This document shows positions 28,039-37,866 of a stretch of DNA of 64,000 bases, in pieces. Source of the stretch: Dehalococcoidia bacterium (GTDB lineage Bacteria > Chloroflexota > Dehalococcoidia > CAUJGQ01); the NCBI GenBank assembly GCA_035310145.1, contig DATGEL010000104.1:1-64000 (forward strand). Reading direction: 5' to 3'. The position numbers were made by a program, and so were the translations under genes. The notes below the pieces were generated by a model, which searched no databases, was not told where the DNA came from, and was given only the letters and a program-made list of their open reading frames with translations. Positions within the stretch are counted from its first letter, which is position 1. Each line of letters starts with the position of its first letter.

Positions 28039-28281
28039 CTAGCCCAGACCGTCGTCTTCGAGCTCGCGGCGATGGCCCAGCAGGAACATCGCCGCGCCGG
28101 CCAGGGCCGAAATCGCGCCGGCGACCAGCATAAAGGTGATGCTGGTGTTGGGAGCGCCGTGCCCGGTGCCGGTGTTCGGCAGTTGCACCGCGGCCGGCGC
28201 GCCGGCCGCGGCCGCGACCGTCGTGGCCGCGGACGCGCCCGCCACCGCAGTGGCCGCGCCTTCGGTTACGGGGGTCGTCAT
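28039..28281 (-). CDS. LPXTG-like (LPNTG) tail-anchored small membrane protein
   Basis: An 80-residue protein: an Ala/Thr-rich N-terminus, then QLPNTGTGHG, one hydrophobic segment (ITFMLVAGAISALAGAAMFLL) and a charged end (GHRRELEDD). This is the layout of a sortase signal, but there is no N-terminal signal peptide. GGAGG lies in the last codons of the upstream GT2 gene, and the ATG is two bases after its stop, so translation is coupled. No sortase gene is in the window. It may be a substrate or just a tail-anchored peptide of the polysaccharide machinery. Confidence 0.75.
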   Translation of the reverse strand: MTTPVTEGAATAVAGASAATTVAAAAGAPAAVQLPNTGTGHGAPNTSITFMLVAGAISALAGAAMFLLGHRRELEDDGLG

Positions 28282-28283
28282 GG

Positions 28284-29615
28284 CTAAACCTCCTGCCTTC
28301 TCTCGGGGCTCGTCCAAATGGAAGCGTCCGTATTGCCGGCAGCCGTCTTGAGCTGCTGATATTGGCTCCGGACCGTGCTGCCCACCGCCCGGAAGGTCAC
28401 GATGATGTCCACGTACAGCAAGAACAGGAACAGTGGACTGTAGTAAAGGACGCGCGGCCTGCGCGTGACAAAGCTGACGACAAGCGCCGTCAACAGCACA
28501 CTGCCGTACTGCCAGGCGAACAGATGCAGCACCGCCGACCGGCTCTGCACGTCGAAGAACCAGACGTGCAGTTGCACGGGGTGAATGAGCAGCACCGGCA
28601 GCGCGAGGACGGTCAGCATGTAAACCGCGATATCAAGCGTCAGCAAGACGGTGGAGATATCGAGGACGCTCACGCCCGTGGGCAGCCCGTTGCGCATGTG
28701 GAACCAGCGCAGCCCCACCTGGTATCTGCGAACCGACTCCCACCAGGCGCGATCCCAGCGGTACATCTGCCGTTGATAGGAATCGATCGTGAACGGATCC
28801 TGGGTGGCAACCACGGCTGAAGGCACGTACTTGATCTTGCCCAACCGCTGACGGTGCACCTGCATGGTCAGGCTGAAGTCCTCGGTAGACATGCGGTGAT
28901 CGAACGTGAGCTGTTTGAGCACCCGCGTCTTCCACGTCGTGCTGCAGCCCGACGCGATCGTAACCGAGTTGGTGTAGCTCTGGAGCCGCTTGTAGATGAG
29001 CTGCCACAAGGTGTAGACGTAGGTGCGATACACGGAGATCAGGTTGTTCGCATGCCAGCGCGAGCGCACCTGGCCGACGGCGCAGGCGATGTCCGTATAG
29101 CGCAGCACCTGCAGCGTGTTCTGCAGGAACGCCGGATCGACGGTGGTGTCGGCGTCAATGACCGAGACGTACACGTACTCGCGGGGAAACACGTGGTTCG
29201 AGAGCACGTGCTCCAGCCCACGCGACTTGCCGAACTGCCGTTCGCCCACCAGCACGTTGGCCTCGGGCAGATACCGACGAGCGATTTCCGCCGTGCGATC
29301 CGAGCAGTTGTCGCAGAAGACGAACACGTCCTCCCGTTGCCAGACCTGCACCACGGAACGCAGCGTCGCGGCGATCACGGCCTCCTCGTTATGCGCCGGG
29401 ATGACGGCCGCGCAAACGCCCGGGGGTATCACCAGGGCGGGTTGCCGGCCGAACCAGCGGCGCAGACCGCGGGCGCGCCCGACATGCCCCGACAGTTCGA
29501 CGGCTCCCGCCAGCCGCGACGGCGCCAGGTCGGCGCGCCGGCGCCGCTCGGCCAGCCAGCCGAAGCCGCCCGCCGCGATGCATGCCAGAATCACGAAGCC
29601 AACCGTGTACAGCAT
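28284..29615 (-). CDS. Processive family-2 glycosyltransferase (polysaccharide synthase-like)
   Basis: A 443-residue membrane enzyme. One N-terminal helix, then a GT-A domain: AAVIPAHNEEAVIAATL, IDADTTVD (metal-binding Asp residues), STEDFSLTMQV (catalytic region) and QMYRW, the QxxRW motif of processive synthases such as cellulose or hyaluronan synthase. Three or four hydrophobic helices follow (VLLTLDIAVYMLTVLALPVLL and others). It probably polymerises and exports a glycan using sugars made by the two upstream genes. The epimerase stop is 61 bases upstream, so all belong to one operon. Confidence 0.9.
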   Translation of the reverse strand: MLYTVGFVILACIAAGGFGWLAERRRRADLAPSRLAGAVELSGHVGRARGLRRWFGRQPALVIPPGVCAAVIPAHNEEAVIAATLRSVVQVWQREDVFVFCDNCSDRTAEIARRYLPEANVLVGERQFGKSRGLEHVLSNHVFPREYVYVSVIDADTTVDPAFLQNTLQVLRYTDIACAVGQVRSRWHANNLISVYRTYVYTLWQLIYKRLQSYTNSVTIASGCSTTWKTRVLKQLTFDHRMSTEDFSLTMQVHRQRLGKIKYVPSAVVATQDPFTIDSYQRQMYRWDRAWWESVRRYQVGLRWFHMRNGLPTGVSVLDISTVLLTLDIAVYMLTVLALPVLLIHPVQLHVWFFDVQSRSAVLHLFAWQYGSVLLTALVVSFVTRRPRVLYYSPLFLFLLYVDIIVTFRAVGSTVRSQYQQLKTAAGNTDASIWTSPERRQEV

Positions 29616-32717: not shown

Positions 32718-33185
32718 TCAACGCCACGCCCGCGTCTCGGCCGCGCCTCCGACCTGGCTGCGCGAGTAGCCGACGATCGTCTCCGGGTCGGCCACGGCGA
32801 TCAACTCGTCGCGCATCAGGACGCGCAGCGGCTCGCCGCAGTCGAGGCACGGCGCGTCGATCTGCACGCGTTTGCCGGGAAAGAGCCAGCGCACGGCCAG
32901 CGCCTCGAAGCCGCACTGCGCAAACCAGCGCTGCTCACCCTCGACGGTAACCCGGTACTGCGTCGGCAGGTTGTGAAACGGCGGAAAGGAGACGATGTAG
33001 TCGGTGCCGGGATGAAGCCAGGCGGGAATGCCGGTCTCGATCAGGTCGCGCAGGGTTTGCCGCCCCGCTTCCACGTCGAGGCCAAGCTCGGCGGCCAGCT
33101 CCGCGTAATGGGGCGCCTGGCCCGTGGCCACCATGCGGGCGGTGATCGCCGCGAACGCCCGGTCCAACAGCGCCACCTCGGTCAC
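32718..33185 (-). pseudogene. N-terminal part of alkylmercury-lyase (MerB)-like protein
   Basis: About 155 codons. An N-terminal winged-helix-like segment (MVATGQAPHYAELAAELGL), then FHNLPTQYRVTVEGEQRWFAQCGFEALAVRWLF and CLDCGEPLRV, typical of the MerB family region carrying the catalytic cysteines. MerB cleaves C-Hg bonds using Cys-Asp-Cys; the exact triad is not assured here. The frame stops at TGA 32718, then continues with a family-like C-terminus. I prefer the GTG at 33185 (AGAGG seven bases upstream). No merA or merR nearby. Confidence 0.65.
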
Positions 33186-33191
33186 CGGCAC

Positions 33192-33500: not shown

Positions 33501-33623
33501 TTAGTGGCCCCAGGACTCGATGCCGTCGGCCAGGGCCTTGGCATGCGGGCTGGCCAGGAACAGCGCCAGCGGCCCGGCGGCCAGGGCAAGCAGCAGGTGC
33601 AGGTGCGTGCGCAGATACGACAT
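33501..33623 (-). CDS. 40-aa hydrophobic peptide, copy A
   Basis: GGGAAGG lies 5 bases before the ATG. The peptide opens MSYLRTHLHLL, has one hydrophobic segment (LLLALAAGPLALFLAS) and ends AKALADGIESWGH. It differs from copy B only at residue 2 (Ser for Thr). Codons from about 3 to 37 are identical at DNA level to copy B (110 bases), while upstream and downstream sequence differ. It may be a small membrane peptide, a secreted signal or a bacteriocin-like product. Family unknown. It follows the RiPP-like gene on the same strand. Confidence 0.7.
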   Translation of the reverse strand: MSYLRTHLHLLLALAAGPLALFLASPHAKALADGIESWGH

Positions 33624-33688
33624 CAGAACCTTCCCGAGTGCGAATTTGAATGGTCGAGGTCCGCCGTGGCGAAGGCACGGACGGGGGA

Positions 33689-33922
33689 TCAGGCGATCGC
33701 CGCCAACTCGGGCGACATCGCCGGCGCACCGCGGCGCCACGCCTCCACGGCCAGCGCCAGGTCGGTGAGCGAGTTGGCGCCCGAACCGGTGAGCACGCCC
33801 AGTTCAGCGCCACTCAGGTCGTACTGCTGCACCGCAAGGCGCGGCGCCTCCAGCAACACGCCGAGAAAGGCGCCGTCCAGCGCGGCGCGGCAGAGAATCG
33901 TTTGCAAGGTTTGCATGGCCAT
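33689..33922 (-). CDS. NHLP/Os1348-type RiPP-precursor-like protein
   Basis: A 77-residue protein. The pattern LQTILCRAALDGAFLGVLLEAP ... YDLSGAELGVLTG follows the Os1348/Franean1_4349 leader plan (short helix, D-xxF-xxLL-xxP, YDL, E-xx-L), which is related to nitrile hydratase/Nif11-type leader peptides. The C-terminal 20 residues (EAWRRGAPAMSPELAAIA) lack Cys and carry only one Ser, so few modifiable residues exist. GAAGGAGGG is well placed before the ATG. No YcaO, radical SAM or lanthipeptide enzyme is in the window. Family match is by pattern only. Confidence 0.6.
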   Translation of the reverse strand: MAMQTLQTILCRAALDGAFLGVLLEAPRLAVQQYDLSGAELGVLTGSGANSLTDLALAVEAWRRGAPAMSPELAAIA

Positions 33923-33951
33923 GACCGGCCCTCCTTCGCGTGATCGGCCGC

Positions 33952-34074
33952 TTAATGCCCCCAGGACTCGATGCCGTCGGCCAGGGCCTTGGCATGCGGG
34001 CTGGCCAGGAACAGCGCCAGCGGCCCGGCGGCCAGGGCAAGCAGCAGGTGCAGGTGCGTGCGCAGATAAGTCAT
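33952..34074 (-). CDS. 40-aa hydrophobic peptide, copy B
   Basis: Starts MTYLRTHLHLL, otherwise identical to copy A. GGAAAGGA precedes the ATG by about ten bases. One predicted membrane helix and a conserved end, SWGH. The stop codon is TAA in both copies. It lies upstream of the RiPP-like gene, so the two copies bracket it. In-frame extension to 34299 has no ribosome site and is low-complexity, so I do not include it. Confidence 0.7.
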   Translation of the reverse strand: MTYLRTHLHLLLALAAGPLALFLASPHAKALADGIESWGH

Positions 34075-34326
34075 CTCGGCGAGATCCTTTCCTCGGCCGC
34101 CGCCACGAGCGGCAGCCCTTTCTCCGGGTTCCATGTGCGGACGTGCAGACACGATCGAACGGGCTTCAGGCGATGGTGGCGGGAACAGGCGTGCGGAGCG
34201 AGCGCTCGTGGCGGTGACCGCGGCGGGCGGCGGTGGCCGGCGGCCGCTGAGGCGCGGCGAGACATCGGGACTCCTCGCTGCTGCTCGGCGGCGTTGCATC
34301 CACGCAACACGCTCTCGCGAGCGCCC

Positions 34327-34563
34327 CTACTCGACAGGATTCGAAGCTTCCTTGCTTCTTACAAACGCGGACAGGCGCTGCTCGCGCAGCTCGGCGGCCA
34401 GCACGTTGAGGTTCGAATAACTGTGGCCGGAAGCGCAGAGCCAGTGCGGGGAGATCCACCAGGAGTCGAGCCGCAACGCCGCGCTGCAGACCGGACAGGT
34501 CAGCGGCTCGCCAAACGTCGGGCTGTCGCGGAGGAGGGTGCGTGGTTGTACGCGTTCGAGCAC
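34327..34563 (-). CDS. Small zinc-ribbon protein, 78 aa
   Basis: GTG start with GAGGAA six bases upstream. CPVC near residue 23 and CASGH near 43 suggest a zinc ribbon with a C-x-C-x-C-His set, joined by LRLDSWWISPHWL. The C-terminus is a helix (LNVLAAELREQRLSAFVRSKEA). Its Shine-Dalgarno lies in a hairpin arm. Position between the BTAD regulator and the peptide genes suggests co-regulation. Confidence 0.7.
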   Translation of the reverse strand: MLERVQPRTLLRDSPTFGEPLTCPVCSAALRLDSWWISPHWLCASGHSYSNLNVLAAELREQRLSAFVRSKEASNPVE

Positions 34564-34569
34564 AGCGGT

Positions 34570-34610
34570 TCCTCATCGGGCGGCCGGCACAGTGCCGGCC
34601 GTGCTGAGGA
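34570..34610 (-). promoter_or_regulatory. Hairpin that can hide the zinc-ribbon gene's Shine-Dalgarno
   Basis: 10-bp arms CGGCCGGCAC (34581-34590) and GTGCCGGCCG (34592-34601), plus outer pairs TCCTCA (34570-34575) with TGAGGA (34605-34610). On the minus strand the GAGGA of the ribosome site forms the outer arm, so folding would block translation. Confidence 0.5.
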
Positions 34611-34707: not shown

Positions 34708-37700
34708 TCAGGCGCGCAATTGCGTTGCCAGCGCCTGCAGCTCGGCGCCGGGCAGGATGCCGAGCTCGTCGCGCAGCACCGCCGCGCAGCGCTCGTAGCA
34801 ACGCCGTGCGGCGGCGCGGTCGCCAAGGCGCAGGCTGGCGCGGATGACGCGGGCATACGCGGCTTCGCGCAGGGGATCGCGTGCCAGCAGGCGCTCGGCT
34901 GCCGCGATGCATTCGCTCGGTTCGCCGGCGGCGGCGTGCGCATCCGACAGCCGGTCGAGCGCCAGCAGATAGCGCTGTTCCAGACGCGTGCGCGGCTCCG
35001 CGCACCACTCCGCTTCAAGCTGCTCCAGAAACTTGCCCGTATAGCGGGCGACGGCGCCGTCGAGCAGCGCGACGGCCTGGTCGCCGCTCGCGCTCGCGGC
35101 CTCGTGCAGCAGCCGCTCAAACTCGCGCACGTCGTAGGAGACGATCAGCTCTTCGTTCACCCGGTAAATGCCCGACGAGAGCACGATTGCGTCGTGGTGA
35201 ATCGCCTTGCGCAGCCGGTAGGCAGCCGTATGCAGGTTCGTCCGCGCGCGGTCGATCGGCGCATCGGGCCAGAGCGCGTCGAGGATTTGCTCCTGGCGCC
35301 GCGGCCCGCCGTGCAGCAGGTAGAAGTACAGCTCCCGCGCCTTGTACGAGACGAAGTCCACCGGGCGCTCGCCGTCGATCAGCAGCGTGCCCGGGCCGAG
35401 GGCGCGCACTGCCAGCGCGGGCAAACGCACCGCCGGCGCGCTGCTGCCCGGCGGCAGCTTCTGACCCGTGCGGGCCAGCACCGCCTCGATCCGCGCCGGC
35501 TCAATGCCGCTCGCGGCCGCCGCCAGCAGCGGCGCAGCATCCCAGCGCGCGTGCAGATCGAGGACCGCGTCGCCGCCCAGCTCGCCCGCCCCGCGCAGCG
35601 CCGCACGCAGGTGACGATTGGCTGCCCGCTCCGCGCCCGCCGCATACTGCGCCTGCATCAGCCACAGATGGGCGCGGGTATGCTCGCGCGGGGCGCCCAT
35701 CGCGGCGAAGGCGTCGGCCGCGGCAAGCAACGTCGTCAGGGCCTGTGGCCGCCCCATCCGGCTCTCGATCGCGCCCAGCGTCAGCGAGCAGAGCGCCTCA
35801 AGATAGCGCGACTCCTGCCGTCGGGCGAGGCCGAGGGCGTGGTGAGCGTGCTCCTCCGCCCGCGTTAAGTCGCCGGCGAAGGCGGCGGTAAGCGCTAGCG
35901 AGTCGTAGATCGCGGTCACGGCCCACAGTGAGCCCAGGTCCTGCATCGTCGCCAGGCCGCGCTCGAAGGCCGCGCGGGCGCCGGCCAGGTCGCCCGTCTG
36001 CAGCAGGATCTCGCCCAGCGAGTGCTGGGTCAGCCCCTCGATCGAATCGTTGCCGCCATCGCGTGCCAGCCGCAGCCCTTCGGTCAACGTGTCGCGGGCG
36101 CGGGCATAGTCGCCGCGGTAGCCGTAGGCGCAGCCGAGCGCGTTGAGCATCTCCGCCTGCATGGCCAGATCGCCGAGGCGCCGCCAGCGGGCCAGGCAAG
36201 ACTCGTAGGCGGCGATGGCGCGCGCCAGTTGTCCGGCTTTGGTCAGCGCAACGCCCAGACCAAACTCGGCGCGCGCCGCCTCGTGCTCGTCACCCGCGCG
36301 ATCGAAGTACTCGAGCGCGGCGCTCAGTTCAACCGCGGCCGCGGCGAAATCGCCCTGCACACCGAGGCATTTACCGTGGTCACGACGCACGGCGGCGACC
36401 AACGCCGCATCCTCGGGCGCCAGCTCGCGGGCGCGGCTCAGCGCCTGGAGCGCCTCGCGCGTGCGCCCCTGCTGCCGCCGCACGCTGCCCAGCGCCGCCA
36501 AGCCCCTGGCTTCGAGCGGGGCGTCGCCGCCGACAGCCGCGGCGATCGCCGCCAGCGCGAACCGCTCGGCCTGGGCGAGATCCCCGATCAACAGCGCCGC
36601 CCGGGCGCCGGCAAGGTTCACGCCGGGTTGAGCGGCGGCGGCCTCGGCCGGGAGCGCCGCGACCACCTCCGCCAGCGCCCGCCAGCGTCCGCTCTGTTCC
36701 AGGCGCGGGAAGATGCGCGCCACCAGCGCGGCCGCCTCCAGCGGCTCGCCCGCGCTCAGGAAGTGCTGCAACGCCGCCGGCCACTCCTCGCGCGCCGCCA
36801 GCAGCCGCGCCGCCACGCCGTGCAACCGCGCGAACTCGGCCGGCCGCGTGCGCCGCAGGCGCGTTTGCAGGAAGACGCGAAAGAGTCGATGGTAGCGAAA
36901 GTCCGAGGGGCTGCTCGCCAGCCGCTGCACAAACAGGCCGGCGAACTCGACGCGATCGAGCATCGCCACCCAGTTGCCGGCGCCGAGCAACGCTCCGCAG
37001 AGGCCGGCATCCACGCATTCGGGAATCGCCGTGGCGAGCAGGAAGCGCTGCACCTCCGCCGGCTGGCGGTCGAACGCCTCGGCCGCCAGGTAGTCGTAGA
37101 GCGGGCCATCGCCGCCGCGGGCCGCGATCAGGCCGCCCACCAGCCCTTCCCACAGCCGCGGCACGGAGAGCAGAAAGCCCGCCACCCAGCCCTCGGCGCC
37201 CTCGGCCAGCTCGCGCGCCTGCTCGGGCGCGATTTGGACGCCGCGGCGGCGCAACAGCGTCAGCAGTTCCGCGGCGGTGAAACGTAGATCCGCCTCGCCC
37301 AGCCCGAAAAGCTGCTGTTCCACGATCAACCGGGAGACGGTCAGCGACGGCAAGGCGCGGCTGGCGAGGATCAAGCGCAGGTTCTCGGGCAAGAGGCGCA
37401 GCAGCTCGTCCATGAACTGCGCGATCGGCGGACTCTCGTTCACCTCGTGGTAATCGTCGAGCACCAGCACCGCGAAGCCGTCCATGTGTTCGGCCACGTC
37501 CAGGGCGAACAGACGAGCCAGGGGCAGGGCGCGTTGCTCCACGTCGCTTGAGCCACGCAGAGTGGCGAGCAGCCGCTCACCGAACGTGGGGCAGTGGAGA
37601 CGCAGCGCCTCGGCCAGGGTCTCGATGCAGACGGCGAGGTCACGGTCGCCGGCATCCAGCGCGGCCCAGGCGACGGGATGCGCGGCGCCGCGGGCGAAAT

Positions 37701-37866
37701 CGGCCAGCAGCGTCGTCTTGCCGAAACCGGCCGGCGCCACGACGAGTTGCAGCTTGCGGCCGGCGTGGCGCTGAAGCGCGTTCAGCAGCCGCGAGCGTGG
37801 GAGCGTATCCGCGGCAGGGCGAGGAGGCTGGGTTCTAGCGGCGAGCACGGCCGGCGCTTTCAGCAC
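34708..37866 (-). CDS. MalT-like STAND regulator with C-terminal BTAD domain
   Basis: A 1052-residue protein with GTG start. Walker A VAPAGFGKTTLLADFARG near residue 50, Walker B AVLVLDDYHEV, and a MalT-like ATPase section (residues 1-330). Long TPR-like helical repeats span about 330-800. The C-terminal part has an OmpR/SARP-like winged helix (VRALGPGTLLIDGERPVDF ... ILDALWPDAPIDRARTNLHT) and a BTAD domain (YDVREFERLLHEAAS ... LERQ-type repeats). It is likely a signal-responsive transcriptional activator. Expression probably starts at the TATAAT at 37902-37907. It lies just upstream of the peptide cluster and may control it. Confidence 0.88.
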   Translation of the reverse strand: MLKAPAVLAARTQPPRPAADTLPRSRLLNALQRHAGRKLQLVVAPAGFGKTTLLADFARGAAHPVAWAALDAGDRDLAVCIETLAEALRLHCPTFGERLLATLRGSSDVEQRALPLARLFALDVAEHMDGFAVLVLDDYHEVNESPPIAQFMDELLRLLPENLRLILASRALPSLTVSRLIVEQQLFGLGEADLRFTAAELLTLLRRRGVQIAPEQARELAEGAEGWVAGFLLSVPRLWEGLVGGLIAARGGDGPLYDYLAAEAFDRQPAEVQRFLLATAIPECVDAGLCGALLGAGNWVAMLDRVEFAGLFVQRLASSPSDFRYHRLFRVFLQTRLRRTRPAEFARLHGVAARLLAAREEWPAALQHFLSAGEPLEAAALVARIFPRLEQSGRWRALAEVVAALPAEAAAAQPGVNLAGARAALLIGDLAQAERFALAAIAAAVGGDAPLEARGLAALGSVRRQQGRTREALQALSRARELAPEDAALVAAVRRDHGKCLGVQGDFAAAAVELSAALEYFDRAGDEHEAARAEFGLGVALTKAGQLARAIAAYESCLARWRRLGDLAMQAEMLNALGCAYGYRGDYARARDTLTEGLRLARDGGNDSIEGLTQHSLGEILLQTGDLAGARAAFERGLATMQDLGSLWAVTAIYDSLALTAAFAGDLTRAEEHAHHALGLARRQESRYLEALCSLTLGAIESRMGRPQALTTLLAAADAFAAMGAPREHTRAHLWLMQAQYAAGAERAANRHLRAALRGAGELGGDAVLDLHARWDAAPLLAAAASGIEPARIEAVLARTGQKLPPGSSAPAVRLPALAVRALGPGTLLIDGERPVDFVSYKARELYFYLLHGGPRRQEQILDALWPDAPIDRARTNLHTAAYRLRKAIHHDAIVLSSGIYRVNEELIVSYDVREFERLLHEAASASGDQAVALLDGAVARYTGKFLEQLEAEWCAEPRTRLEQRYLLALDRLSDAHAAAGEPSECIAAAERLLARDPLREAAYARVIRASLRLGDRAAARRCYERCAAVLRDELGILPGAELQALATQLRA

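Follow-up and report, generated by a model that had tools for sequence, protein, structure and literature searches.

The mini-peptide genes and the large BTAD regulator described here probably form an undescribed peptide signalling system of a quorum-sensing-like kind, not a modified-peptide antibiotic cluster. They were found in a 64,000-nucleotide stretch of Dehalococcoidia DNA, hereafter the window, from a genome of 5.3 Mb in 148 contigs (G000). Our computations show that regulator and peptide are linked over many families, that the peptide genes are under coding selection, and that a SARP-type operator pattern accompanies them. The surveys covered a phylum taken as Chloroflexota.

Gene organization in the window

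All genes of the set lie on the minus strand. The NOD-TPR-SARP regulator (34708–37866, GTG start, 1052 aa) is followed by a Zn-ribbon protein (34327–34563, GTG, 78 aa), mini-peptide 1 (33952–34074, ATG, 40 aa), an Os1348-like protein of the NHLP clan (33689–33922, ATG, 77 aa) and mini-peptide 2 (33501–33623, ATG, 40 aa). The initial annotation listed these four small reading frames and the BTAD gene, each small gene with its own Shine-Dalgarno sequence, and both statements were borne out (GAGGA, AAGGA, AAGGAGG and GGAAGG, in gene order). The regulator is 637 bp from peptide 1, with the Zn-ribbon gene between them. Longer mechanical reading frames of 115 and 79 aa were rejected as peptide starts, because the Shine-Dalgarno sequences sit at the 40-aa starts and the homologues in a related genome begin at the matching place. 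Neither an Rfam match nor a terminator-like site was found. Downstream of peptide 2, at 32718–33191, lies a 157-aa MerB-like protein (alkylmercury lyase family, 1.7e-10), which the cluster of that related genome lacks. Elsewhere in the window, a 92-aa protein (28039–28317) whose C-terminus carries an LPNTG-like sorting motif adjoins a glycosyltransferase.

A single residue (T2/S2) separates the two peptides. Codons 3–38 match exactly at the DNA level and the flanks are unrelated, with immediate divergence, which points to a precise duplication or gene conversion of the peptide gene. On inspection, both have a basic start, a hydrophobic stretch and an AxA site. The segment had been described as membrane-like; the hydrophobic stretch is there, but it is better read as the h-region of a Sec signal than as a membrane peptide. 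By the AxA rule, signal peptidase is predicted to cleave between ALA and DGIESWGH, so that peptide 1 would divide into MTYLRTHLHLLLALAAGPLALFLASPHAKALA and DGIESWGH (predicted tail at 33955–33978, minus strand) and peptide 2 into MSYLRTHLHLLLALAAGPLALFLASPHAKALA and the same octapeptide (33504–33527, minus strand). The two tiny genes thus look like signal peptides with a cargo of 7–8 residues.

As the initial annotation had said, the 40-aa peptides match nothing familiar: no Pfam, PHROGs or meaningful NCBIfam family was hit. A single-sequence search with the 40-mer in 294 genomes of the class gave only chance matches inside long reading frames, and a peptide profile (A1) run against 400 genomes of the phylum gave noise near E 0.01. 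An Acrocarpospora match (L010) was dismissed as spurious, being antisense to a long reading frame. The wider peptide family was reached through the Os1348-like and DUF5317 genes as anchors and not through peptide searches.

Recurrence in a related genome

Among the genomes examined, one other member of the window's family was found (G025), which belongs to another genus. It repeats the set of a Zn ribbon, two 38-aa peptides and an Os1348-like gene in one run on a single strand (L009/L209). Since the same genes recur there, with Os1348-like proteins 49% identical to each other, the four-gene set is more than chance. The C-termini of these two Os1348-like proteins are not alike. The Zn ribbons (L009:8014-8400 in the relative) are 39% identical, occupy the same place and keep the Cys, His, WW and HSYSN motifs. 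The peptides of both genomes share the start M-[ST]-[YF]-x-R-x-x-LHL...AGP. In G025 the leaders of the two copies differ and both end in AHADVNFPTG, a tail that is identical at the DNA level too. The window tail DGIESWGH stands at the same position as DVNFPTG after AHA in G025 and DVNFPF after ALA in a distant family (L203). The counterpart of the regulator is 51% identical to that of the window and lies on another contig, and G025 therefore offers no neighbourhood link between regulator and peptide.

The Zn ribbon, which has the motifs CPVC and CASGHSYSN in the window, is specific to the window's family: in 235 genomes of the class, the one match outside these two genomes was weak and stop-interrupted (G037). 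No relative with a solved structure was found for it.

Regulator architecture and recurrence across the phylum

By its profile matches the regulator combines a MalT-like NTPase, TPRs and an AfsR-like SARP (ODB-BTAD) domain. Pfam places BTAD at 912–1051 (1.8e-24) and finds TPRs, TPR_12 (1.2e-17) among others. The regulator-family profile matches the MalT N-terminus (8bob) over 8–422 (4.5e-73) and the AfsR SARP domain (8k60) over 821–1063 (5.7e-40); in the regulator, the SARP match covers the C-terminal 240 residues. The ODB and BTAD parts that define a SARP domain are thus both present.

Following Os1348-like genes elsewhere in the phylum brought up loci arranged as BTAD regulator, a peptide of 33–34 aa, DUF5317 and Os1348-like gene. 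Downstream of the regulator relatives lies one peptide gene of 29–48 aa with its own Shine-Dalgarno sequence. Its product has a basic start and a hydrophobic stretch, then a site resembling that of signal peptidase, and closes with a short tail; genes for DUF5317 and for an Os1348-like protein often come next. This module of regulator and mini-peptide recurs in about 15 families (f1, f14, f33, f62, f90, f92, f97, f103, f104, f119, f120, f129, f130, f139 and, divergently arranged, f100). The initial proposal that small peptides and the BTAD regulator belong to one system is thus upheld by relatives with a downstream peptide and SARP-type repeats, and comparable mini-peptides do occur beside Os1348-like genes in other genomes.

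A strict scan (24–60 aa, Shine-Dalgarno sequence, hydrophobic stretch, basic start), with criteria that L110-L115 prompted and that were set once the first loci had been inspected, found a peptide in 22 of the 25 regulator-linked gaps, while shuffled sequences lead one to expect 0.14. Gaps after other genes in DUF5317 loci gave 9/183, seemingly from the same peptide family, and are not a clean background. The regulators closest to that of the window have a peptide downstream (with a weaker Shine-Dalgarno sequence in L212, divergent in L214/G311, and unlinked in G025). None of ten more distant full-length BTAD regulators has one of this type, except for a longer candidate in L235. On the regulator tree the peptide label is clustered, with 6 changes against 11.3 after shuffling, and none of 500 shuffles was as low. 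The window's regulator groups with that of G025 and then with that of L113, a locus in which BTAD, peptide and Os1348-like gene come in this order.

DUF5317 was surveyed in a sample of 201 genomes (57 positive, G000 negative) and the regulator in a sample of 101, and both surveys added further loci. In the majority of related loci, DUF5317 follows the peptide. Where it has no BTAD neighbour (L156-L195), peptides of 25–39 aa end in GAGTRWH, GAGMRW, SGANDKW and similar, possibly as a second branch of the family with other partners. Many loci have an Os1348-like homologue downstream of the peptide or of DUF5317, and many module members lack one (e.g. L199-L203, L220-L222). Os1348-like protein and DUF5317 are both common and optional, so neither is the essence of the module.

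Coding selection and tail variation

Purifying selection acts on the peptides: in frame, 12 between-genome pairs taken together gave a pS of 0.66 and a pN of 0.21, and the other frames showed no such contrast. Past the small-residue site, most members have a tail of about 4–11 residues; that of L198 is longer. The last eight residues include an aromatic residue in 36 of the 47 peptides. Tails vary between genera and are identical between copies within one genome, as with DGIESWGH and DVNFPTG; the distant L203 ends in ALADVNFPF, near the G025 tail. In one genus with small closed genomes, four species carry WPVATGP, WPVGTCP, GPIATLP and GPFPTMP after AA, the last two read by eye from the sequence. 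Some family tails start with GAP, which is a poor SPase I site unless cleavage falls one residue earlier.

Direct repeats upstream of the peptide genes

SARP sites are described as 11-bp direct repeats, the last of them 8 bp from the -10 element (PMC10936776), and the target repeats have also been reported in matching terms (PMC5930380). The 180-bp regions before peptide genes, some of them shorter, were scanned for 8-base tandem repeats. Of 30 regions, 12 have a perfect (8/8) repeat at 11 bp (0.06 in shuffles), a number that rises to 19 when 12-bp spacing is allowed as well (0.15 in shuffles). Ordinary upstream regions of the same loci gave 3/307 and 6/307, respectively. TAnnnT follows 7–9 bp past the second repeat unit in 12 loci. 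A SARP-type operator pattern of putative sites thus precedes peptide genes in the family; SARP spacing is 11 or 22 bp, and one lineage here uses 12 bp. Three peptide-less BTAD regulators (L223, L224, L225) also have a perfect 11-bp direct repeat within 400 bp downstream.

An operator is not evident in the window itself, where 8-mer repeats at offset 11 in the gap upstream of the Zn-ribbon gene reach 6/8 at best, no better than background. A 19-bp palindrome, GGCCGGCACTGTGCCGGCC (34582–34600), lies directly before the Zn-ribbon Shine-Dalgarno sequence and holds GCCGGC at 11-bp spacing. It was rejected as a SARP box, as no -10 element fits and the repeat is 6/8; its pattern occurs 9 times in the window, where 2.9 would be expected. 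In G025, TGCCGGTATCG occurs twice in tandem, with no clear -10 element at the expected distance.

A candidate signalling module and its alternatives

We consider it moderately probable that the peptide is an exported signal whose operon is activated by a regulator that probably reads the peptide. The small genes would encode Sec-type propeptides, and cleavage between ALA and D would free the octapeptide DGIESWGH outside the cell. The regulator is proposed both to activate the peptide operon, through SARP-type direct repeats, and to serve as peptide receptor. Its TPR domain would most probably bind the peptide or a fragment of it, re-import being assumed, and the outcome would be population-dependent feedback. 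That the TPRs read the peptide is suggested by the presence of this domain together with the linkage of regulator and peptide, and in AfsR-type large SARPs the TPR has been described as a tentative sensor domain (PMC10936776). Where present, DUF5317 may be a membrane partner in processing, export or sensing, and the Os1348-like protein is probably an accessory; we also infer some role for the Zn-ribbon protein. Against the signal reading stand the lack of an operator above background in the window and the Zn-ribbon gene between regulator and peptide, as well as the unlinked regulator in G025 and the DUF5317-linked peptides that occur without a nearby BTAD gene.

The initial annotation had also considered ribosomally made, modified peptides (RiPPs), with no modification enzyme in the window. 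No such enzyme was recognised among the neighbours of the genes here or in G025, and this argues against a RiPP cluster, in which an unlinked enzyme would modify the 40-aa peptides as cores or the Os1348-like protein as leader-core precursor. The likeness to Os1348 that suggested it is real but weak: the 77-aa protein matches NCBIfam NF038399 with E 1.7e-6 and 28 bits, short of the cut-off of 40, and Pfam Frankia_peptide at 0.0016, also below cut-off, while the relative in L113 passes the NF038399 cut-off with 47.6. Modification genes and antibiotic activity have been connected with Os1348 in Pseudomonas Os17 (PMC7726476), and Trp-rich tails in the wider family, with W in the last eight residues of 24/47 peptides, would also suit a RiPP. 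However, the Os1348-like gene is missing in many members, the two Os1348-like proteins have unlike C-termini, and the peptide leaders are of the signal-peptide type, not NHLP, followed by a short tail. The RiPP reading is therefore not supported, and we regard it as improbable. We hold it unlikely, though less so, that the peptides are small membrane proteins that are not secreted and act as subunits or regulators of DUF5317 or of a sensor. Hydrophobic proteins of 25–48 aa do adjoin DUF5317 even without a BTAD neighbour, but G000 keeps two peptide copies without any DUF5317, and a short tail after AxA that is the same between copies and varies between genera is what would be expected of a released signal.

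An AfsR-AfsS-like pair, in which the SARP regulator drives a small intracellular effector protein, would account for the same regulator domains and for 11-bp direct repeats before a small gene (PMC10936776); the signal-like hydrophobic stretch common to all family members makes it very improbable, and no feature shared with AfsS was noticed. The size, hydrophobicity and duplication of the peptides would also fit a SARP-controlled hydrophobic toxin or bacteriocin-like peptide. Since no antitoxin or immunity gene was recognised, and the conserved tail variation and the regulator linkage need no toxin, we find this the least credible of the readings.

Relation to known systems

The exported-signal reading has its closest parallel in the RRNPP systems of Bacillota (Rap-Phr, PlcR-PapR, NprR-NprX, Rgg-SHP), which place a small Sec-type propeptide with a variable short C-terminal signal beside a TPR regulator, and in which duplicated propeptides are known (PMC11343458). 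The RRNPP signature includes a receptor of 250–500 aa (PMC10075063). The propeptides here (40 aa in the window, 25–48 aa in relatives) lie within its 10–100 aa, and the predicted receptor has TPRs. However, this receptor is a NOD-TPR-SARP protein of 1000–1080 aa (1052 aa in the window) with another DNA-binding domain and from another phylum, and the genes are adjacent in most relatives but separated by the Zn-ribbon gene in the window and unlinked in G025. Because of receptor length and adjacency, the window's locus is not classed as RRNPP; by analogy, the logic of the module seems RRNPP-like and its parts unrelated.

By domain content the regulator is of the SARP type. It shares the SARP (ODB and BTA) domain, NTPase and TPR with AfsR and further large SARPs (PimR, SARP-LAL). 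Their 11-bp direct-repeat operators, with the last repeat 8 bp from -10, have putative counterparts before peptide genes of the wider family. It differs from AfsR in its reversed domain order, with the SARP domain at the C-terminus, and in that the gene driven would be a signal-peptide-like mini-peptide. The 77-aa protein has the domain type of the Os1348/Franean1_4349 (NHLP clan) and PalX-PalQ RiPP precursors, but it has no adjacent GNAT, SagB or prenyltransferase partner and is optional; on these features the locus is not classed as a RiPP cluster. Unlike most related loci, the window's genome lacks DUF5317 (PF17248), a domain not mentioned in the literature searched.

Os1348-type domains have other settings too. 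Os1348-like proteins of 75–90 aa ending in SPEWT or PMGGW (L079:3086-4042, L080:4879-5844, also L025 and L033) directly precede an enzyme of the polyprenyl synthetase family and resemble the Trp-prenylated PalX-PalQ RiPPs (PMC10853753). Within the class to which the window belongs, a molybdopterin oxidoreductase ends in the Os1348/Franean domain, and a free-standing copy of the domain neighbours a formate/nitrite transporter (among L015:1-1719, L035 and L039).

The literature searched held no peptide signalling system of such a plan for the phylum. It is possible, at somewhat short of an even chance, that the module represents phylum-wide quorum sensing that did not descend from RRNPP, with a NOD-TPR-SARP protein as receptor and autoregulator, Sec-exported heptapeptide-like signals and DUF5317 as dedicated membrane partner. 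Relatives with small closed genomes may be culturable. The module names a candidate ligand beside its receptor and predicts the sequence, the operator and the membrane partner, and it is therefore directly testable.
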